DNA of 64,000 nucleotides from Flagellimonas alvinocaridis. GTDB lineage: Bacteria > Bacteroidota > Bacteroidia > Flavobacteriales > Flavobacteriaceae. The notes under the pieces were generated by a model that saw only the letters and a program-made list of their open reading frames with translations, had not been told where the DNA came from and did not search any database. Each line of letters opens with the position of its first letter. Positions within the stretch are counted from its first letter, which is position 1. Below, piece after piece: positions 21,473 to 31,359 of this stretch. The stretch spans positions 62,001-126,000 of the forward strand of contig NZ_SNTZ01000002.1 in NCBI RefSeq assembly GCF_004916895.1, written 5' to 3'. The position numbers were made by a program, and so were the translations under genes.

Positions 21473-21757
21473 TTGTAAGAAAAATCTTAATACAAATGTA
21501 ATAATAAAAAAGGTAATATCCACATTTATTCATTAAAAAAGAACATTAAGAGGTAGGTTTTAATGACATGATAATCAAAGTATTGTGATTTTTTAAGATT
21601 GTTGATCCCTATTGGGAAAAACATATAGAGTGGTTAGGCTTTTTTTCTTTTCCTACAAATGGGAAATAGGTAGTAAAACACTAGATTTGCCTTAAATTTT
21701 TTATGGAAAAACCCCATTTGCCTTGATGTATATGGAGGTAGAATAGTGAAAATCGGT

Positions 21758-22672
21758 ATGATGCAATTGAACATTGTTGATGAAACCAGCCCATTAAAGG
21801 CAGTGATTTTAGGAACAGCTAAGAGCTGCGGACCTGTGCCCAGCCCAGATGAGGCATATGACCCAAAATCCTTGGAGCATATTTTAGCAGGAACATATCC
21901 TAAAGAAGCAGATATGGAAAAGGAGATGGATGCCTTTGCCAAGGTATTCCAAAAGTATGGTGTGGAGGTATATCGCCCAGAGATATTGCAGAACTGCAAT
22001 CAGATTTTTGCCCGTGACATTGCTTTTGTGATTGAGGATAAGCTTTTTCACGCCAATATCCTTCCCGATCGCGAACGGGAGTTTGTGGCCATTCATGAGG
22101 TGTTGGACAAGATAGACCCCAACAAGGTCATTCGCCCTCCGGAAGAAGTCCATATTGAAGGAGGGGATGTAATGCCCTGGAACGATTATATCTTTATCGG
22201 AACTTATACCGGACCGGATTACCCGGATTATATCACTGCACGTACCAACAGGGAAGCCGTGGAGTACATCCGAAGGATGTTTCCCTACAAAACCGTAAAG
22301 TCTTTTGAACTACGAAAATCCAACACCGACCCAAAGGAAAATGCCCTGCATTTGGACTGCTGTTTTCAGCCTGTGGGAAAGGATAAGGCCATTTTGCACC
22401 GAAATGGATTTCTGTTGGAAGAGGAATACCAATGGTTGGTAGACCATTTTGGAAAGGACAATGTTTTTGAGATTAACAAAGACGAGATGTACCAAATGTT
22501 CAGCAACGTATTTTCCATTTCCCCCGAAGTGGTGGTATCCGAAAAAGGATTTACCCGACTCAACAACTGGTTACGGGAACAAGGTTTTACGGTAGAGGAA
22601 ATCCCCTATGCCGAAATCGCCAAACAAGAGGGACTACTTCGGTGCAGTACCATGCCTTTGATTCGGGAATAA
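21758..22672 (+). CDS. Guanidine-modifying enzyme (amidinotransferase/DDAH superfamily)
   Basis: This is a beta/alpha-propeller enzyme of the superfamily that attacks guanidino groups (arginine deiminase, dimethylarginine hydrolase, amidinotransferase). Visible active-site blocks are FARDIAFVIED, EGGDVMPW (acidic), HLDCCFQPV (His) and a C-terminal Cys in LLRCSTMPL. It has 304 aa from ATG 21758, where family members begin; GTG 21746 has a GGAGG 7 bp ahead (21734-21738) and is an alternative. The exact substrate is unknown. It is followed 37 bp later by ctlX, so the two probably act on arginine-type compounds together. Confidence 0.8.
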   Translation: MMQLNIVDETSPLKAVILGTAKSCGPVPSPDEAYDPKSLEHILAGTYPKEADMEKEMDAFAKVFQKYGVEVYRPEILQNCNQIFARDIAFVIEDKLFHANILPDREREFVAIHEVLDKIDPNKVIRPPEEVHIEGGDVMPWNDYIFIGTYTGPDYPDYITARTNREAVEYIRRMFPYKTVKSFELRKSNTDPKENALHLDCCFQPVGKDKAILHRNGFLLEEEYQWLVDHFGKDNVFEINKDEMYQMFSNVFSISPEVVVSEKGFTRLNNWLREQGFTVEEIPYAEIAKQEGLLRCSTMPLIRE

Positions 22673-22709
22673 TACCCACCTTTGTCTAGAAAACTTAACA
22701 AAACAAGCA

Positions 22710-23645
22710 TTGAGAACACAGATTACCAATACCATTCTCATGATTCGTCCGGTGGCTTTCCGGATGAACGAACAAACGGCCGTCAACAATTATTTTCAGG
22801 AAGACCTTGACCTAAAGAACACAGAAATAAACCAGAAAGCTCAACAGGAGTTTGATGCTTTTGTGCAAGAACTTCGGAATCACGGGGTCCATGTCGTCGT
22901 GGTGGACGATATCAAGGAACAGGACACCCCGGATTCCATTTTTCCGAACAACTGGGTTTCCTTTCATGAAGACGGAACGGTTTGCGTATATCCCATGTTT
23001 GCTGAAAACCGAAGAAAGGAACGCCGGGAAGACATTTTGGACATTCTGGAGCAGCAAGGCTTTGCCATCAACAATGTCATGGACTATACCGAAGCGGAGG
23101 AAGAGGGCGTGTTTTTGGAGGGAACAGGGAGTATCCTTTTGGACCGTGTTAATCAAAAGGCGTATTGTGCGCTGTCCGAACGGGCCCATGAGGAACTTTT
23201 TATTGAGTTCTGTGAGGATTTTGACTGTTTCCCTGTCATTTTTACGGCTAATCAGACCGTGGACGGGCAGCGTTTGCCCATTTACCACACCAATGTGATG
23301 ATGGCCATGGCCGAGACCTTTGCGGTGATTTGTTTGGCTACTATCGATGACAAAAAGGAACGCAAGAATGTAGTAGACCATCTTAAGATGGACGGTAAGG
23401 AAATCATCGACATTACCGAGGAACAGATGTACCACTTTGCTGGGAACATGCTCCAAGTAATAGGGGCCAATGACCAACGTTTTATGGTGATGAGTTCAGC
23501 CGCCTACAACAGTCTTCGTGATAATCAAATCAAGACCATTGAAAAGCATTGCGCCATCATTCACAGTCCGTTGGATACTATCGAGACCTGCGGTGGTGGC
23601 AGTGCCCGTTGCATGATGGCGGAGGTTTTTTTGCCAAAGAAGTAG
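22710..23645 (+). CDS. ctlX: CtlX-type arginine deiminase-related hydrolase
   Basis: CtlX-like proteins are guanidino- or ureido-hydrolases linked to citrulline use. It has 311 aa. IRPVAFRMNEQTAVNNYFQ at the start, FPNNWVSFHEDG, EGTGSILLDR, the His region YHTNVMMAM and the C-terminal catalytic Cys in GGGSARCMMAEVF are present. The start is TTG at 22710: the ATG at 22740 would remove the conserved QITNTIL segment. Its stop is followed directly by a repeat cluster. Confidence 0.85.
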   Translation: MRTQITNTILMIRPVAFRMNEQTAVNNYFQEDLDLKNTEINQKAQQEFDAFVQELRNHGVHVVVVDDIKEQDTPDSIFPNNWVSFHEDGTVCVYPMFAENRRKERREDILDILEQQGFAINNVMDYTEAEEEGVFLEGTGSILLDRVNQKAYCALSERAHEELFIEFCEDFDCFPVIFTANQTVDGQRLPIYHTNVMMAMAETFAVICLATIDDKKERKNVVDHLKMDGKEIIDITEEQMYHFAGNMLQVIGANDQRFMVMSSAAYNSLRDNQIKTIEKHCAIIHSPLDTIETCGGGSARCMMAEVFLPKK

Positions 23646-23650
23646 CCGTC

Positions 23651-23671
23651 ACCCTGAACTCGTTTCAGGGT
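23651..23671 (+). repeat. Hairpin just after ctlX
   Basis: ACCCTGAA (23651-23658) pairs with TTCAGGGT (23664-23671). It begins 6 bp after the ctlX stop and opens the repeat cluster. The same half-sites recur at about 27313-27367, where a second GC-rich hairpin is nested between them. It lacks a proper T-run. Confidence 0.6.
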
Positions 23672-23700
23672 CGCATCTCTTATGATGTTAGTTTTTATTT

Positions 23701-24306
23701 GTCATTCTGAGCAAAGCGAAGAATCTCTTCTGAGGTTTTGACACGAATGGCACCAATTTTCTCGAATGCTCTGGGTCATTTCGAACCAATGTGAGAAATC
23801 TCCTTTTGGGGTTTGACACGAATTACACGAATTTTCTCAAAAACCTTATGTCATTTCGAGCGCAGTCGAGAAATCTATTTTGGTTTGACAAGAATTGCAC
23901 CAATTTCCTCGAATGCTCTTTGTCATTTCGAACCTTGTCCTGAGGGTGGCCGAAGGAGCTGTGGGAAATTATTTTGGTTTGACACGAATGACACGAATTA
24001 TCTCTAATGCCCTATGTCATTCTGAGCCCTGTCCTGAGACTATGGCGAAGGAGCTGCGAAGAATCTCATCTTGGATGGGATTTCTCAATCAATGCTTTGC
24101 ATCTCATATCGAAATGACGTTTTGCATGGTTTTGTCATTTCGAGTGCATGCGAGAAATCTATTTTGGGTTGACACGAATGGAACGAATTTTCACGAATCC
24201 CCAATGTCATTCTGAACCCTGCCCTGAACATAAGGCGAAGGAGCTGTGAGAAATCTGTTGGATGGGATTTCTCAATCGATGCGCTGCATCTCATTTCGAA
24301 ATGACC
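23701..24306. repeat. Intergenic palindromic repeat cluster 1
   Basis: Between ctlX and the DUF2306 gene lie seven units starting with GTCATTTCGA or GTCATTCTGA at 23701, 23775, 23850, 23922, 24016, 24134 and 24206. Each continues through a variable insert to GAGAAATCT or GAAGAATCT. Units are joined by a linker containing TTTGACACGAATG, CACGAATTTTC and TCGAATGC. Where only the left half is present, the spacing is 72-75 bp. Two units carry the right arm GATTTCTC...TCGAAATGA and form complete hairpins. Short open frames within are repeat sequence, not genes. Confidence 0.9.
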
Positions 24307-24323
24307 AATGACTGGATTGGAGT

Positions 24324-24980
24324 TTATTTTCTTGAAGTTTTCAGCAGCTTCTTCAATTGAGGCCGCCAGCTCAAAAAGAACTCAGTAATCATCAAAGGGT
24401 ATACCCAACAAATCCATTCGTAAATGGTATACCGCATGGTTTCGTCCTCAATAAAACTAAAGATTCCGGTAAAGTAATCAACCTCTGGCAGCAATCGGAT
24501 AAAAACAAAGGCAAGCCCGCAAACATAACTACGGATCATAAATTCTTTATGCACCTTCACATTGCGTTTTCGGATGCTGATATAGGCCATGATTGTGGTA
24601 AAGATCCAGATAGTGGCCAATAAGGCCAAGGATGGAATGGCACCGGGTAAAGAATAGGTGGTCACCAAAAGCACATATACTGTTAGTGCGGAAACCAGCG
24701 ACCCGATAATATAGATTTTGCCAGAAATCCTATGAAACTTTAAAAATCGGTTTCGGATGTAAGGTATAAATTGCAGGGGGCCGAGAAAAAGGGTAGTTGC
24801 AGCTGGAGCAAAATGTGCAACCAGCCACCATTTGTATTTTAATTTTACTTCGCTTACTTCAGACGGGTTATAGAAAATATAACTTTCAACATTGGTAAGG
24901 TAATAATAGGTCGATACAAGGAGTACAATGCCCCAGAAAAATAAGTTCCCCAACAGTATTTTACGCTTTCTCGTTAACAT
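24324..24980 (-). CDS. DUF2306 integral membrane protein
   Basis: The product has 218 aa and about six to seven hydrophobic spans. HFAPAATTLFLGPLQFIP, KFHRISGKIYIIGSL and NVKVHKEFMIRSYVCGLAF, with their conserved His/Arg residues at membrane edges, are typical of DUF2306. The function is unknown; the His positions suggest a redox or heme-like role, but that is speculative. It stands alone between two repeat clusters. A second, diverged member lies at 44420-45046. Confidence 0.8.
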   Translation of the reverse strand: MLTRKRKILLGNLFFWGIVLLVSTYYYLTNVESYIFYNPSEVSEVKLKYKWWLVAHFAPAATTLFLGPLQFIPYIRNRFLKFHRISGKIYIIGSLVSALTVYVLLVTTYSLPGAIPSLALLATIWIFTTIMAYISIRKRNVKVHKEFMIRSYVCGLAFVFIRLLPEVDYFTGIFSFIEDETMRYTIYEWICWVYPLMITEFFLSWRPQLKKLLKTSRK

Positions 24981-24992
24981 ATTTAAAAGTAT

Positions 24993-25004
24993 TAGGTTAA
25001 CCTA
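24993..25004. promoter_or_regulatory. 12-bp palindrome upstream of the DUF2306 gene
   Basis: TAGGTTAACCTA is a perfect palindrome 13 bp before the ATG of the DUF2306 gene (- strand). The size and place fit a repressor or activator operator. No regulator gene is adjacent. Confidence 0.35.
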
Positions 25005-25045
25005 GCGGGGAACTTCTTTAAATATACAATAATTAGTATGCCAGT

Positions 25046-26596
25046 TTATCCTTTCTTTCGAAACGAGCTCAAAAAAACTGTAGCCATAAACACCATAAAA
25101 AAAGCGAAGGGCAGGGAAGTGATGATGAGCAGTTTCTGAACGGCAGTAAGTACATCAATGTCTGGTTTGGCATTGCCTAGGAGAATGAGCGCCAAGGTCG
25201 CCAACAAAATAAAGATGGACCAGATAAGTCGATGTTTTTTCTGAGGATTGGGATTGCCCTTGTCCGTGAACATGCTCAATACAAATACGGCAGAATCCAC
25301 GGAAGTGACCAAAAAGCTCACCAAAAGCAAAATGGTGATTCCGTTTAGCAGTCCCGAAAACGGATATTCCCCAAAAAAGATGAAGATGGACGAGAACACA
25401 CTGCCAAACTCATTGTTGTAACTGCCCCAACTTTCAATAATTTCAAAGGCCGAAGTGCCAAAGACTGAAAACCAAAAGAAAGTTCCGAGCGAAGGGATGA
25501 TCAACACCCCCAACAACATTTGCCGCAAGGTGCGCCCTCGTGAAATCCGGGCGATGAAAATACCGGTAAAGGGAGCCCAGGCCAACCAGAAGGCCCAATA
25601 GTAAAATGTCCAATCGGTGAGGAATTCAATGCCGGGGTTGTAGCGCCCCACCGCGATGCTCATCGGAACAAAATCCATGAGGTAGTACCAAGAGGCCTTT
25701 CCGAAGGAAAGCAGGATATCCCCCATATTGCTATTGACGAACACAAAGGCCAATAACAGCAGCGTTACCAAAATATTGAATTTGGAAATCCGTTTGATGC
25801 CCTTGTCCACCCCCAACCACACCGAGACAAACGCAATGGCGGAAATCAAAATGGCCAGCAGTAAAGTAATCGTTACCCCAAATTCAGGCTGAAACACATG
25901 GTTGAGACCTCCGGTAATTTGGGCGGTGCCCAGACCTATGGCGGCGATCAATCCAAAAACGGTGGTGATGATGGCCAGAATATCCACCGCATTGGCGCGT
26001 TTGGTACCCTTGAATTTTTGAGGGATGGAACTGCTCACCAGTACTTTTTGCTTTTTGGCAAAGAGCGCATGGCCAATGATCAGGGCAAACAATCCATAAA
26101 AGGCCCAAGCGGTAAAGCCCCACTGGTAAAAGGTGAACTCCAACGCCAAGATTTCTGGGGTGGTTTTGGAGGCAAAAGGTGGGTTTTGCTGCATAAAAAT
26201 GGGTTCCTGCACCGCCCTGAGCAAAATTCCGGCCCCCATGCCCGTGCTGTAGAGCATACTGGCCCACGCCCAAGTGGAATGTTCTGGTTTTTCGTTGGGC
26301 TTACCCAATTTGAGCTTCCCCCATGGCGATACAGCAATGCCCAAGAGCAACAACACGCAACCGAGGCCCAGATACAGGTAAAAATACCCGAAGTGGCTCC
26401 GCACCCAGAGCGAGAGCATCTCAATGGATTGGTAGCTCCACTCCGTAAACAGGAACACCACTGCCGAGAACAGCAACAGCAGCCCGGTGGAGACGGCCAA
26501 TAGTGGGTTGTTTTTTAGGAAGTTGTAAATGACTTTTGTTTTTCCCGAAGATAATAGGAAATCTGCACTTGTAATTTCTAGCCTTGTCCTGAGCAT
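25046..26596 (-). CDS. BCCT-family transporter (betaine/carnitine/choline type)
   Basis: This is a sodium- or proton-coupled uptake carrier for a quaternary-ammonium osmolyte such as glycine betaine. About 516 aa and twelve spans. Signatures: TGMGAGILLRAVQEP (substrate/sodium region) and DWTFYYWAFWLAWAPFTG (the Trp-rich BCCT box), then ARISRGRT. The start is uncertain: the only in-frame ATGs, 26647 and 26596, both lie inside repeat sequence. Homology begins near residue 20 of this form (FLKNNPLLAVST), where no ATG exists. It is a single gene and is downstream of repeat cluster 2 on its own strand. Confidence 0.85.
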   Translation of the reverse strand: MLRTRLEITSADFLLSSGKTKVIYNFLKNNPLLAVSTGLLLLFSAVVFLFTEWSYQSIEMLSLWVRSHFGYFYLYLGLGCVLLLLGIAVSPWGKLKLGKPNEKPEHSTWAWASMLYSTGMGAGILLRAVQEPIFMQQNPPFASKTTPEILALEFTFYQWGFTAWAFYGLFALIIGHALFAKKQKVLVSSSIPQKFKGTKRANAVDILAIITTVFGLIAAIGLGTAQITGGLNHVFQPEFGVTITLLLAILISAIAFVSVWLGVDKGIKRISKFNILVTLLLLAFVFVNSNMGDILLSFGKASWYYLMDFVPMSIAVGRYNPGIEFLTDWTFYYWAFWLAWAPFTGIFIARISRGRTLRQMLLGVLIIPSLGTFFWFSVFGTSAFEIIESWGSYNNEFGSVFSSIFIFFGEYPFSGLLNGITILLLVSFLVTSVDSAVFVLSMFTDKGNPNPQKKHRLIWSIFILLATLALILLGNAKPDIDVLTAVQKLLIITSLPFAFFMVFMATVFLSSFRKKG

Positions 26597-27440
26597 AAAG
26601 TGAAGGAGCTGCGAGAAATCTATTTTGGTTTGACACGAATGGCACAAATTTTCACGAATGCTCTAGGTCATTTAGAACGAATCTGAGAAATCTATGGGTG
26701 GGTTGAGATTTCTCAATCGTCCCAGGGGCTATTGGGACTCATGTCGAAATGACGTTTTGCATGGTTTTGTCATTTCGAGCGCCCGCCTGACCGGACGGGC
26801 AGGCATGTGAGAAATCTTTTATGGTTTGACACAAACTCCACGAATTATTTCGAATGCCTTATGTCATTTCGAACCTTGTCCTGAGAGTAGTCGAAGGAGC
26901 TGTGAGAAATCTGTTGGTGGATGGGATTTCTCAATCGATGCTTTGCATTTCATATCGAAATGACGTTTTGCCTGGTTCTGTCATTTCGAACGCCCGCCTG
27001 ACCGGACGGGCAGGCATGTGAGAAATCTACTTTGGTTTGACACGAATAACACAAATTTTCTCGAATACTCTAGGTCATTTCGAACCTTGTCCTGAGAGTA
27101 GTCGAAGGAGCTGTGAGAAATCTATGGGCGGGTCGGGATTTCTCAATCGTCCCGCGGGCTATCGGGACTCATATCGAAATGACTACTGGCTGGCCTTGTC
27201 ATCTTGAGCGGAGTCGAAAGGTAGACAGGGCATCTCGACTGTCCGTCCGAACGGACAGGCATGCGAGAAATCTCTTTTCGGAGTTTGACACGAATGGCAC
27301 GGATTTTCTCGAAAGCACCGTCACCCTGAACCCGCCTAATCGGACGGGCAGGCTTGTTTCAGGGTCTTATGCTTTGGGATGGGATGCCGAAACGAGCCCG
27401 CCTGTACTATTCGGGCAGGTTCGGCATGACGCAGGATAGA
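26575..27440. repeat. Intergenic palindromic repeat cluster 2
   Basis: This cluster has units with GTCATTTCGA-type or degenerate starts at 26667, 26769, 26863, 26980, 27074 and 27198. Complete units read GTCATTTCGA, variable insert, GAGAAATC, short loop, GATTTCTC, second insert, TCGAAATGAC. Inserts are themselves hairpins and are exchanged between units: GATGC-TTT-GCAT type or GTCCCG...CGGGAC type on the right. On the left they are GCCCGCC...GGGCAGGC or a CCTTGTCCTGAG...CGAAGG block. The far end (about 27313-27431) is more degenerate and GC-rich. There is no gene inside. Confidence 0.9.
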
Positions 27441-27480
27441 CATTGTTCATTGTAAATTGCTAATTGTACATTGTAATAAG
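27441..27480. repeat. Short AT-rich word repeat
   Basis: The run CATTGTTCATTGTAAATTGC followed by TAATTGTACATTGTAATA is made of ATTGT and TACAAT words and is partly self-complementary. It closes repeat cluster 2 and matches in style the longer element at 39245-39340. Confidence 0.5.
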
Positions 27481-27602
27481 CTTTCTCGCTATGCCTTGTA
27501 AGATATTTTGGTAAAAAATATTATATTGGGTTGATTTTTAGAAGTTTCCCTCCCCTTAATTTTACTTCAATAGGACTCTTTAATTATTAAATAAATCATC
27601 GG
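27481..27602 (+). promoter_or_regulatory. AT-rich region before the orphan nuclease gene
   Basis: These 122 bp between the repeats and the 614-aa gene are strongly AT-rich and should hold its promoter. TATTGGGTTG and TTGATTTTTAG are seen, but no exact TAnnTTTG box. Nothing else is recognised. Confidence 0.3.
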
Positions 27603-29447
27603 ATGAGGTTAGAGAAAATACTAGATAAACTCGGCTCAATTGAAAAAAACTCTTTCATTAAAATCATAGATAGTATCATATCTAAGAATCCAAAAAACAA
27701 AAAGGAAATTAATGAGATTCTGATTACATCAGATAAGGGATTGAAATCTGTTGATAGTCAGAACATTGCTAATATTTTTACTCTGATTTCTAGTGAATTC
27801 AAAGAGCATATTAAATCTGAATTTCAAGAGATTACATCACAGTTGGACATCTTAATTGATATAATAATTAAAGATGGAAACTGCATAATGAAACAAGATT
27901 GGTTCTCGCGGCTATATGAAGCGGAAATCAAAAACTTAAATTCAAAAATTAAATCACTAAATGCTGACTTTGAGAACGAAAAATCTGATTTAAGTGAGAT
28001 AAGAAAACGAGATTATCAAATATACAAGTCTTGTCTTTATACAGCATATAAGAATGATGTGGAAAGTAATAGAGACCCAAGAATAACATCAGATGAGCTA
28101 TCAATATTACTAACCCTATCCAAGCAACTAGGGCTTTCTCAGGAGGAGATTAAATTGATTAATTACTCAATACTCCCAATTAAGAAAAAGGATATTCAAG
28201 ACGTCATTAAAGAGTTAAAGAACATTGGAGTTATATTTTATTCTAACAAAGAGAATACGATTTATGTGGCGGATGAAATGGTTAGGATATTGAGAGAAGT
28301 TCGAGAAAAAGAAGTTGCAGAAAAGTTCTATCGTAGAACGCTCAAATTATTGAGAGAGCCCATAATAAATCAAATAGCAAGGGAGCATAACATTGATAGA
28401 AACCATACATTTTCTCAAAAAATTGAAGGAATAATAAAAGAGGGAGTTCCATTCACAAATTTATTGCTCTCAAAAATTTACAAATCAGATAGCACTCTAA
28501 CCCAAAGGAAAAAGATACTTAATGAATTATGCGAAAAAGGATTAAATATTAAGAATCTAAAAGGAGCTACGTTAGATGAAAAAATTGAAAGCCTGATCAA
28601 GTACTTTGATAATGTTGAGCGTGATGAGAAAGTGGGAATTTCTTTGGATGGCTTTGACAAGCTCTTGTCTGAACTCAACGTAACTCTTCCAAAACTGAAT
28701 ATGCAGATAAGGGAACAATTCCAATTTCAAGAAGAACATGTTCTGAAAGCTGATTTTCTGCTTGACTATAACATAAAGCCTAGAGATATTCTTGATTTGA
28801 TTTCCAAGGAGGACCTCAAAATGTTTATCAGGGAAAATGGAATTAAACAACGAGGGGATGACATACTTAATATTCTTGAATTTTATAAAGATGTAGAAAA
28901 CCTTTACTTGGAGAATTATGAAAACGTGGCTTATCGTGATTTAAATCAACTGAAGGAAAATGGGATTGCAATTAAGGAAAGCGAACTTGGATTAAAATTT
29001 GAAGAACTGACTAAAGTTATTTTCAAAGGACTAGGTTTTAATGTGGATGATAAGTTTAGAAATCAACTAAATACAAAAAAGGATATGATGGATATTCTTT
29101 TGAACCTAGGTAACGATGAAATAATTATAGTTGAATGTAAATCGGTTAAAGAAAGAGGTTATAACAAATTTAGTACAGTATCTAGGCAGTTAAAGTCTTA
29201 TCAAAATCTCGCTATCAAAAATAACCTGAGAATTGCTAAGATATTACTTGTATCACCTGAATTTAGCGATGACTTTATAGCGGACTGTGAACTGGATACT
29301 GAAATGAACCTATCACTTGTTCCAGCAGCATCACTTCGTAATATTTTTGAAGCATTTAAAGATTCCACATATCAAGAGTTTCCATATGTTTTGTTCAGAG
29401 ATATTGTAATCAATGAGGAAAGGATTCTTAAAGCTCTTCGGAAGTAA
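27603..29447 (+). CDS. Orphan nuclease with C-terminal Mrr-like PD-(D/E)XK domain
   Basis: 614 aa. The last 150 residues show the restriction-endonuclease fold: a helix LKFEELTKVIFKGLGFNV (464-481), Asp497 in MMDILL, and the Glu511-x-Lys513 pair in IIIVECKSV, as in Mrr-type enzymes. Residues 250-430 contain three segments I read as SAP-like helix-turn-helices (about 254-281, 303-333 and 401-428). Residues 160-235 may be a winged helix and 105-135 a coiled coil. It has no partner methylase, helicase or ATPase. The gene is visibly AT-richer than all neighbours and is next to a repeat cluster, suggesting transfer. Likely a stand-alone DNA-cleaving defence protein; the target is unknown. Confidence 0.7.
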   Translation: MRLEKILDKLGSIEKNSFIKIIDSIISKNPKNKKEINEILITSDKGLKSVDSQNIANIFTLISSEFKEHIKSEFQEITSQLDILIDIIIKDGNCIMKQDWFSRLYEAEIKNLNSKIKSLNADFENEKSDLSEIRKRDYQIYKSCLYTAYKNDVESNRDPRITSDELSILLTLSKQLGLSQEEIKLINYSILPIKKKDIQDVIKELKNIGVIFYSNKENTIYVADEMVRILREVREKEVAEKFYRRTLKLLREPIINQIAREHNIDRNHTFSQKIEGIIKEGVPFTNLLLSKIYKSDSTLTQRKKILNELCEKGLNIKNLKGATLDEKIESLIKYFDNVERDEKVGISLDGFDKLLSELNVTLPKLNMQIREQFQFQEEHVLKADFLLDYNIKPRDILDLISKEDLKMFIRENGIKQRGDDILNILEFYKDVENLYLENYENVAYRDLNQLKENGIAIKESELGLKFEELTKVIFKGLGFNVDDKFRNQLNTKKDMMDILLNLGNDEIIIVECKSVKERGYNKFSTVSRQLKSYQNLAIKNNLRIAKILLVSPEFSDDFIADCELDTEMNLSLVPAASLRNIFEAFKDSTYQEFPYVLFRDIVINEERILKALRK

Positions 29448-29466
29448 GTGGTAAAAAAGCATTGGA

Positions 29467-29691
29467 CTAAACCCTCAATTCAATCACAATCCCCTTCATT
29501 GCCTCCACTACATCTTGCACTTCCCTTCGGGAGAAGGTGTCTTCTTCCAAAAAGAACAACATAAAAATTCCCATCTCTAAAATTTGGGCCAATTTTTCTG
29601 GAGAGCCGTAGCCATCTTCAATCCATTCTTTAAAAGTCTCGTCTTTTTCCATAATAGGAGCAAGAAAAGCGTTTTTCGGCAACGGGTACAT
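29467..29691 (-). CDS. Small hypothetical acidic protein
   Basis: The 74-aa product is read from the ATG at 29691 (YPLPKNAFLAPIMEKDETF...). The in-frame region further upstream enters the previous gene. It is acidic, with a hydrophobic stretch GIFMLFFLEEDTF. I recognise no domain. It follows the CarboxypepD_reg protein by 74 bp on the same strand and converges on the nuclease gene with 19 bp between. A perfect 14-bp palindrome overlaps its start codon. Whether it is translated is uncertain. Confidence 0.45.
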   Translation of the reverse strand: MYPLPKNAFLAPIMEKDETFKEWIEDGYGSPEKLAQILEMGIFMLFFLEEDTFSRREVQDVVEAMKGIVIELRV

Positions 29692-29704
29692 GTCATATAT
29701 GACA
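29691..29704. promoter_or_regulatory. Perfect 14-bp palindrome at a start codon
   Basis: TGTCATATATGACA reads the same on both strands. Its left-most base is the A of the - strand ATG at 29691. It could be an operator, or a hairpin masking initiation in the mRNA. Confidence 0.4.
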
Positions 29705-29765
29705 AGAGGGGTAAAAGATGTTGGGTGAAAGGTGAACCTGAAAACTAAAAACTCAACCCTTACAA

Positions 29766-31262
29766 CTATTCTTCCACAGTAAACTCCCGTATGGCTTGGT
29801 TGGGCTCCATAATGGTATGGCCCTGCCAAAATCCGGGGTCGTAGGTGGGCATATAGGTGGCGCGTGCGGTCTTGTCCTCTTTAAAGTTGGTAAACCGGGC
29901 TTCGGGCACCACTTCTTGGTCAAACACCACCAGTTCCCATTTTTGGGTGGGGCTCATCCTAAAATCTATGTTCAGGGAGAGTTCGTTCTGCTTGCGGCGG
30001 CCCTTTACGTGCTTGTTCTTTTCAATCACTTTTAGGGGGCGGTCCACGGCAAAATAGCGGCCAAAGGTAAAGTCCATAAAGCGGAGGTCGTACTTGCCAT
30101 TGGGCAGTTGGGCAAAGCGCATGGTGCCCTTGTAGAGCACTTCGCGGTAGGTAATGCCCAGCAGCCTAAAATTGCGCAGGCGCTCGGTGTTCTGCACATC
30201 CAGCCGCATAATGGCAAAGTCGGAGATGTTTATATAGAGGCGGCCCTTGAACTCGGCACTGCCCCGCTTGGGCTCGTAGTCGATCACGTAGACCCCGGCA
30301 TCGTCCATTTCGGCATAGCCGGCCAGGGTAAAGGCGTACTTTCGGGTCTTTCGGGTAAGGTCCAGCTTGCTGTCCTCTTGGTAGTAGAGTTCGTTCAGCA
30401 GTTCCTTGAACGCGCTTCGTTGGGCATCCACCAGACCGGAGATGGTGTCTTTTTCCACTTCGTCCTGTAGGTTTTGGGCCTCTTCCTCCGCCATTTCGCT
30501 GAGGATGGAATCTACCTGCACCTTTTGGCTAAAAATGCCCGATTTGATTTTCAGGTAGGAGTCCGGTTTTATGTTCTGCGTAAAAATGGTCTGCATGCGC
30601 TCGCCCAGTTCCTCAAAGGAGCCTACTTGGTTCTTGTCGTACAGGTCGGCCGCCTTGATGATGTCCAGTTTGTATGTGCCATTGTGTTTGTAGAGGTCGC
30701 CCAGACTTTCGGTATAGGTTTTGGCATTTTTGGGGATGCTTGCCGCAATGCTGTCCATGAGCCCCTTGTTGAGCTCCGGAATGCTGGATTCCTCAAACCC
30801 GAAGTCCACCTTGGTAATGGTGGCCAACTCGGACTGCCTCAAAAAGAAGCGCTGTTTCACGGGTTCCTTGTTGATGTTCTGCGGAAGGCGCTCCACCATT
30901 TTTTCGATGATCTCGTCCACGGTAAGCTCCTTATCGAACACGTACACGCCGCTAAGTTCTATGGCCTTGGGTTGAAGGAGCACCACACTGTCCTGCAATT
31001 GGGCAAGGGCAAAGCCCTGTTTGGCGTACCCCATGGAGGAGATGTAAATGGAATCGGGTGCGGAGGTGGCTTCCAAGGTAAAGCTGAAACGGCCTTCATC
31101 GTTGGTGATCGTACCTTGGTGTTCGCCGTACTGCACCGTGGCATACGGAATGCCTTTTTGGGTCTTGGCATCCACCAGTCGAGAGCTGATGGTCTGGGCG
31201 GTCATGGGCAGGGCCATGAGGAAAAGTAACACTGGGAAGATCTTGGTGTTGGACAAGGTCAT
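29766..31262 (-). CDS. Exported CarboxypepD_reg-like domain protein
   Basis: The product has 498 aa from the ATG at 31262 (TLSNTKIFPVLLFLMALPMT is a signal peptide); an upstream in-frame start at 31301 would bury it. A carboxypeptidase-regulatory-like beta-sandwich follows at about 25-105 (LVDAKTQKGIPYATVQYGE, TNDEGRFSFTLEA, ISSMGY), as in TonB-receptor N-termini. The remainder is a long unannotated region, with no barrel end seen. Its role is probably at the cell envelope; it is not a receptor itself. Its base composition is clearly GC-richer than the nuclease gene beside it. Confidence 0.75.
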   Translation of the reverse strand: MTLSNTKIFPVLLFLMALPMTAQTISSRLVDAKTQKGIPYATVQYGEHQGTITNDEGRFSFTLEATSAPDSIYISSMGYAKQGFALAQLQDSVVLLQPKAIELSGVYVFDKELTVDEIIEKMVERLPQNINKEPVKQRFFLRQSELATITKVDFGFEESSIPELNKGLMDSIAASIPKNAKTYTESLGDLYKHNGTYKLDIIKAADLYDKNQVGSFEELGERMQTIFTQNIKPDSYLKIKSGIFSQKVQVDSILSEMAEEEAQNLQDEVEKDTISGLVDAQRSAFKELLNELYYQEDSKLDLTRKTRKYAFTLAGYAEMDDAGVYVIDYEPKRGSAEFKGRLYINISDFAIMRLDVQNTERLRNFRLLGITYREVLYKGTMRFAQLPNGKYDLRFMDFTFGRYFAVDRPLKVIEKNKHVKGRRKQNELSLNIDFRMSPTQKWELVVFDQEVVPEARFTNFKEDKTARATYMPTYDPGFWQGHTIMEPNQAIREFTVEE

Positions 31263-31359
31263 CTGTTCGTTTTTGATGTGTTTTCTATAAAGACAGGGCA
31301 ACTGCTAAAAGGTTGCACACGGGTTAGACGATTTAAGAGGGGATTTGTAACAAACATAC

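Follow-up and report, generated by a model that had tools for sequence, protein, structure and literature searches.

A mobile, stand-alone FokI-type nuclease of Flagellimonas alvinocaridis as a probable one-gene anti-phage defence

The window analysed here, a stretch of 64,000 nucleotides from Flagellimonas alvinocaridis (assembly GCF_004916895.1, contig NZ_SNTZ01000002.1, positions 62,001 to 126,000), contains a lone gene for a 614-residue protein in which an intact FokI-type PD-(D/E)XK nuclease domain lies behind a winged-helix and SAP-like helical part. This gene is not a housekeeping gene, has no constant partner gene and has moved horizontally between bacterial families. Since it moves between families and occupies a place that in relatives is taken by other anti-virus genes, it is probably a one-gene anti-virus defence. 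Our preferred reading, mechanism in outline included, is a mobile stand-alone DNA nuclease acting against phages (or other mobile elements), which we regard as reasonably probable. A first-pass annotation, made from the sequence without database searches, had already proposed a candidate stand-alone defence system, and the mobility of the gene, its solitude and the defence-type site lend support to this proposal. Stand-alone defence nucleases are already known as a kind; what is probably new is this undescribed family, which no paper was found to name in searches of the open-access literature by word (not by sequence).

The protein and its nuclease fold

The gene is present in one copy in the genome, between minus-strand genes on both sides. 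As first noted, it is AT-richer than its neighbours: its GC content of 31.3% is the lowest among the 42 open reading frames (ORFs) of at least 200 residues in the window (against 43.6 ± 3.1%). An identical protein is encoded on NZ_WELG01000001.1 (Flagellimonas olearia CL-SS4). The repeats seen beside the gene do lie on both sides of it. As mobilisers of the gene they were rejected, given that the core of this repeat family occurs at 20 places in the genome and given the comparison of the site with relatives.

The restriction-endonuclease motif proposed from the sequence (D497 and E511-x-K513) is invariant in 319 of 319 aligned homologues, as are R528, Q529 and Y533, which form a QxxxY element. 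These catalytic residues, together with the fold of residues 430-605 in the predicted model, place the protein in the PD-(D/E)XK superfamily. FokI and BspD6I are type IIS restriction or nicking enzymes, and in structure comparisons they are the closest to this fold, the match to the FokI cleavage domain being well above that to other nucleases; hence the name FokI-type. Scores for Shedu (SduA) and Hna were below that of FokI. The protein differs from FokI and BspD6I by its E-x-K after D497, its SAP-like units and the lack of a companion methylase. A whole-model match to FokI spans 621 columns, but we do not take it as a sign of common N-terminal domains, because the N-terminal part searched alone matched nothing at E ≤ 0.001 and FokI was not among the 50 matches listed.

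As regards the initial description as Mrr-like, Mrr_cat is weakly matched in 22 of 68 family members (E ≤ 0.1; best 4.7e-4); the window protein itself does not match this profile, and its nearest fold is that of FokI. Mrr-type enzymes are modification-dependent type IV nucleases. Our protein resembles them, including the winged-helix fusion endonucleases of PMC11037411, in being stand-alone, in its PD-(D/E)XK domain and winged helix and in having no linked methylase; it differs by a fold nearer to FokI and by its SAP-like part. In databases, homologues are labelled hypothetical or, for some in UniProt, "Restriction endonuclease type IV Mrr". PF09254, which we take to be the FokI C-terminal family, is a precomputed annotation on 7 of 240 listed homologues, and hmmscan of these seven and two others found it in none at E ≤ 0.5.

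Scans of the window protein with Pfam, PADLOC and NCBIfam gave no significant family. The earlier remark that this combination was not known from a named system agrees with PADLOC-DB 2.0.0, in which no model of any system matched the window protein at E ≤ 1, nor a Pseudoalteromonas homologue (L018) at E ≤ 0.01. Searches of PDB sequences by phmmer and profiles returned chance-level matches only, and the viral structure library gave no match at E ≤ 0.001. In front of the nuclease domain, the winged helix formerly placed at residues 160-235 is present with a wider extent (94-236), whereas among the three SAP-like segments claimed between residues 250 and 430 one unit (241-293) is SAP-like and the two others are possible.

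Distribution, neighbours and the variable site

Searching with the window protein retrieved at least 2844 proteins at E ≤ 1e-3, the best 120 of which belong to Bacteroidota, and searching with a Pseudoalteromonas homologue retrieved 390, the named ones mostly from Gammaproteobacteria. Bacteroidota copies are 57-83% identical to the window protein, gammaproteobacterial ones 31-35%. Presence is patchy at every rank: 14 of 149 Flavobacteriaceae genomes (one per genus) matched, with 12 full-length Bacteroidota-type copies; the window's own genome is the only one of 71 in the genus to carry the gene; 8 of 393 genomes matched across the order (six full length) and 3 of 395 across the phylum (two full length). 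Therefore, this is not a housekeeping gene, and the conserved gene at a fixed locus that would have spoken against a defence role was not found. Discarded matches were a coiled-coil stretch inside a long unrelated protein (L014), a short piece (L016) and two short order-wide matches (G905 and G918). One further copy (L013/L032, G082), in an assembly sampled as Flavobacteriaceae, was excluded from alignments: it is of gammaproteobacterial type (34% identity), has one internal stop, adjoins a REase_MTES_1575 protein and a NERD protein, and likely lies on a stray gammaproteobacterial contig.

A tree of 80 named copies and two Pseudoalteromonas copies mixes families, with Cryomorpha ignava grouping with Gelidibacter algens (SH-like approximate likelihood ratio test, SH-aLRT, 84) and Kaistella gelatinilytica nested in a Flavobacteriaceae clade (SH-aLRT 96); Salegentibacter sp. 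R32 is nested in Mesonia (SH-aLRT 99). Furthermore, a near-identical copy (595 of 614 residues; L081, L083) occurs in another order.

The loci of these copies share little; the first-pass annotation had seen no methylase, helicase or partner beside the gene. Within six genes on each side, the most common neighbour family occurs at 6 of 82 loci, and no small partner gene recurs next to the nuclease gene. A methylase-motif scan up to four genes away at 80 loci gave four matches, none convincing by eye. In a scan of 130 immediate neighbours, out of 132 with sufficient length, the 25 most frequent of 130 Pfam families include no DNA methylase family; Methyltransf_25 occurs in two neighbours. Homologues in Pseudoalteromonas lie at a variable site as well: SIR2 and HerA adjoin the gene at one locus (L019), a metallophosphoesterase, an ORC-CDC6-like ATPase, a DEAD helicase and a nuclease-related protein do so at another (L018), and no genes of this sort follow it at a third (L017). 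Immediately upstream, both L017 and L018 have an HNH endonuclease and a class I S-adenosylmethionine (SAM) methyltransferase.

In Flagellimonas, the site was read in 23 other genomes (three and then twenty; one more contig, the fourth of the first set, was too short), and the segment that differs from relatives is slightly larger than the nuclease gene (Table 1). The left border is absent solely in L163, which stops at a contig edge. Between matching borders and in the same orientation, G569 carries instead a 562-residue OLD-like ATPase-TOPRIM protein (PADLOC Old 2.9e-29; Pfam OLD-like_TOPRIM 4.9e-10). Ten chosen cargo genes were scanned in the twenty-genome set; six gave no clear match and four did, namely putAbiC (G593, 3.2e-25), HSDR_N (G570, 1.5e-13), AbiGi (G561, 1.5e-40) and a HerA-type ATPase (G568, 1.1e-13). 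By eye, a 351-residue gene in G549 has nearly the same start as the HSDR_N gene. At the end of the G580 region, a protein tail with VEFK and QVEVY motifs reads to us as another putative PD-(D/E)XK nuclease, and G579 has a Big_7 lipoprotein and a small membrane gene. Hence, this site accommodates numerous genes, and a good share of these are of defence type.

From border to border, with the two deiminase-like genes on the left and gene 29766-31301 on the right, the variable site covers 21746-31301 (relatives L148 and L161-L180), and the single genes that it takes in also include a 766-residue gene of G555 whose start looks Mrr-like by eye. A small ORF (29467-29829, minus strand), where the exchanged segment ends on the right, is part of the constant border, because similar short proteins (ending ...VVGLRG or ...VVGLRS) are found at the same place in relatives.

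Table 1. Features of the nuclease gene and its surroundings (window positions)
Feature	Position	Strand	Basis or remark
Nuclease gene, 614 residues and stop	27603..29447	+	ORF; GC 31.3%
Residues 1-93, N-terminal helices	27603..27881	+	Predicted structure model of whole protein
Residues 94-236, winged helix interrupted by a long helical insertion, probably DNA-binding	27882..28310	+	
Residues 241-293, SAP-like unit	28323..28481	+	
Residues 299-343, possible second SAP-like unit	28497..28631	+	First-pass pattern and helix layout of model
Residues 393-430, possible third SAP-like unit	28779..28892	+	First-pass pattern and helix layout of model
Residues 430-605, FokI-type PD-(D/E)XK nuclease domain	28890..29417	+	
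Catalytic core, D497 (29091-29093) and E511-x-K513 (29133-29141)	29091..29141	+	Invariant in aligned homologues
R528, Q529, Y533, QxxxY element 3' of active site	29184..29201	+	Invariant in aligned homologues
Exchanged segment (approximate), differs from relatives	27541..29473		G569 gives left edge; G569, G579 and G580 place right edge at 29474-29486
Conserved left border, two amidinotransferase/deiminase-like genes (our reading)	21746..23645	+	tblastn in 19/20 regions
Left neighbour, BCCT-like transporter (our reading)	25046..26647	-	
Conserved right border gene	29766..31301	-	Matched in 70/70 genomes of genus

Cassette-like borders and prophage carriage

At 11 of 82 loci, a GTTAG box lies 38-52 bases 5' of the start codon and a [G/C]CTAAC box 11-20 bases 3' of the stop, a layout that is, judged by sequence, the one of integron cassettes. 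Long complementary arms stand behind the boxes at 7 of 77 loci, compared with 3 of 817 control genes and none of 770 shuffles, and direct repeats flank 13 of 77 loci versus 6 of 152 control genes (p 0.0016). In each of these three tallies, L083 and L114 have identical flanks and should be taken as one case. The boxed copies L039, L041, L048, L050, L053, L060 and L069 share one short-branched clade spanning several genera. Copies with attC-like sites on both sides are a minority of the family (about a tenth of the fetched loci), and the window copy (L034) has no attC-like site at its locus or in the window. A review (PMC12409362) describes integrons as stores of defence genes: of 179 cassettes from Vibrio cholerae, at least 16 were anti-phage when expressed. 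The tenth of loci in which our compact gene lies between attC-like sites resembles such cassettes of Vibrio and mobile integrons, whereas the hosts here are chiefly Bacteroidota and the window copy lacks a detectable site.

Prophages are another setting: one copy (L083) sits among prophage genes, including a head maturation protease (phrog_53, 1.3e-55), and another (L115) lies at a distance of 2.6 kb from several tail genes in a row. No match to the nuclease was found in 50,697 phage records. These two homologues are cargo in or beside prophages of two phyla, and L116 is a third predicted viral contig.

Two other features of these genomes may concern cassettes. The genomes of L083, L057 and L055 encode tyrosine recombinases of 376-397 residues (L181, L184 and L186, respectively) that match the integron-integrase profile below its cut-off. 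Five attC-like sites lie 2-8 kb downstream of recombinases, on the same strand, in three of six regions, against a background of 2 in 154,544 bases; two further matches (L182 and L185) differ from them in look. The three recombinases are possibly an integron-like platform of Bacteroidota, with the integrase pointing towards the cassettes. In addition, TACGG..CCGTA palindromes reach, up to 600 bases from the gene, roughly ten times the density that they have elsewhere in the loci (21 pattern positions per 92,636 bases versus 25 per 1,259,193, one palindrome possibly scoring twice). They occur near the gene in L035, L043, L049, L050, L056, L058, L059, L063 and L067, on both sides in L056 and L063, and may be the ends of another cassette type.

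Mode of action, alternatives and meaning

In the mechanism that we propose, the winged-helix and SAP-like part would bind DNA and distinguish invading DNA from that of the cell; binding would let two nuclease domains pair in the manner of FokI, and the pair would cut both strands. Since no methylase travels with the gene, the enzyme would have to spare its host by other means. It might cut only foreign-modified DNA, like type IV enzymes, an option with somewhat less than an even chance. This option has a slight lead because the stand-alone winged-helix endonucleases of PMC11037411 were investigated as modification-dependent enzymes, 87% of which have no methylase in the three adjacent genes on each side. 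It might respond to DNA structures or replication intermediates that are characteristic of infection, which we put forward tentatively and which is favoured by a FAN1-like match; FAN1 differs from our protein in being, according to PMC4103454, a eukaryotic repair enzyme with a VRR-Nuc domain. Or, rather doubtfully, it might stay off until an infection signal and then cut DNA at large. A fuller picture, which we hold to be improbable in all its details, is that of single-gene anti-phage nucleases of marine Bacteroidota and Gammaproteobacteria, travelling partly as integron cassettes, whose FAN1-like winged-helix and SAP reader would sense the structure of invader DNA and set FokI-type domains on forks, ends or branches of fast-replicating phage DNA, with no need of a methylase.

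Several observations weigh against a mobile defence gene or support it less than they seem to. The sole near-identical transfer between orders lies at a contig end of a metagenome-assembled genome. Prevalence varies with sampling (12 of 149, 6 of 393 and 2 of 395 genomes with full-length copies), and the finding that all copies are intact is biased because the 80 named loci are the top-ranking ones among 224 confirmed stretches. PADLOC families are not visibly commoner beside the gene (130 proteins) than six genes off (110 proteins). As for the cassettes, a first attC detector found nothing in any locus and a second one found 1 of 78 loci versus 4 of 822 control genes, both failing because they required the two end boxes to match each other; the arm detector was devised after viewing the flanks, which makes its contrast with controls partly post hoc. 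Moreover, the integron-integrase profile matched 17 of 17 genomes but also 13 of 14 controls, none above the cut-off.

Other functions have to be weighed against the same data. The protein could be a structure-specific nuclease of DNA repair or recombination that uses its SAP and winged-helix parts like FAN1 and spread as an accessory repair gene. We give this a small chance, since the very patchy distribution without conserved locus, the exchange at one site with OLD-like, putAbiC, AbiGi, HSDR_N and HerA genes and the carriage in cassettes and prophage all fit defence better. The nearest folds, those of FokI and BspD6I, would suit a type IIS-like restriction enzyme that has its protective methylase at another place in the genome. 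Nevertheless, the gene moves alone, the four methylase-motif matches up to four genes away at 80 loci are unconvincing, even the most common neighbour family is limited to 6 of 82 loci, and a roaming toxic nuclease without linked methylase would kill its new hosts. We find this unlikely, and because that scan of 80 loci brought no convincing linked methylase, the protein was not classed as a type IIS system.

A single gene at ever-changing places, with cassette borders at about a tenth of loci, could also belong to a selfish element as a homing-type or cassette-maintenance nuclease that aids its own spread. However, the mobility of integron cassettes comes from the integrase, a cassette does not have to encode a nuclease for it, and the places used in Flagellimonas are common to unrelated defence-type genes, suggesting a site open to many genes; a selfish role is thus very improbable. 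The same low standing applies to the nuclease half of a toxin-antitoxin or counter-competitor pair: a lone, mobile and intact nuclease gene would be compatible with it, but no small partner gene recurs and no signal or export domain was recognised in the window protein.

If the preferred reading of a mobile stand-alone anti-phage nuclease is true, thousands of "hypothetical" proteins (at least 2844 matched) would form a single-gene defence family that is absent from PADLOC-DB 2.0.0 and has a reader module not seen in FokI. They would add a large case of defence genes spreading alone, partly as integron cassettes, in marine Bacteroidota, and the genus-wide defence site of Flagellimonas would be open to mining. 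Furthermore, how a FokI-type nuclease can leave its host unharmed in the absence of a methylase would be a clear question for biochemistry.
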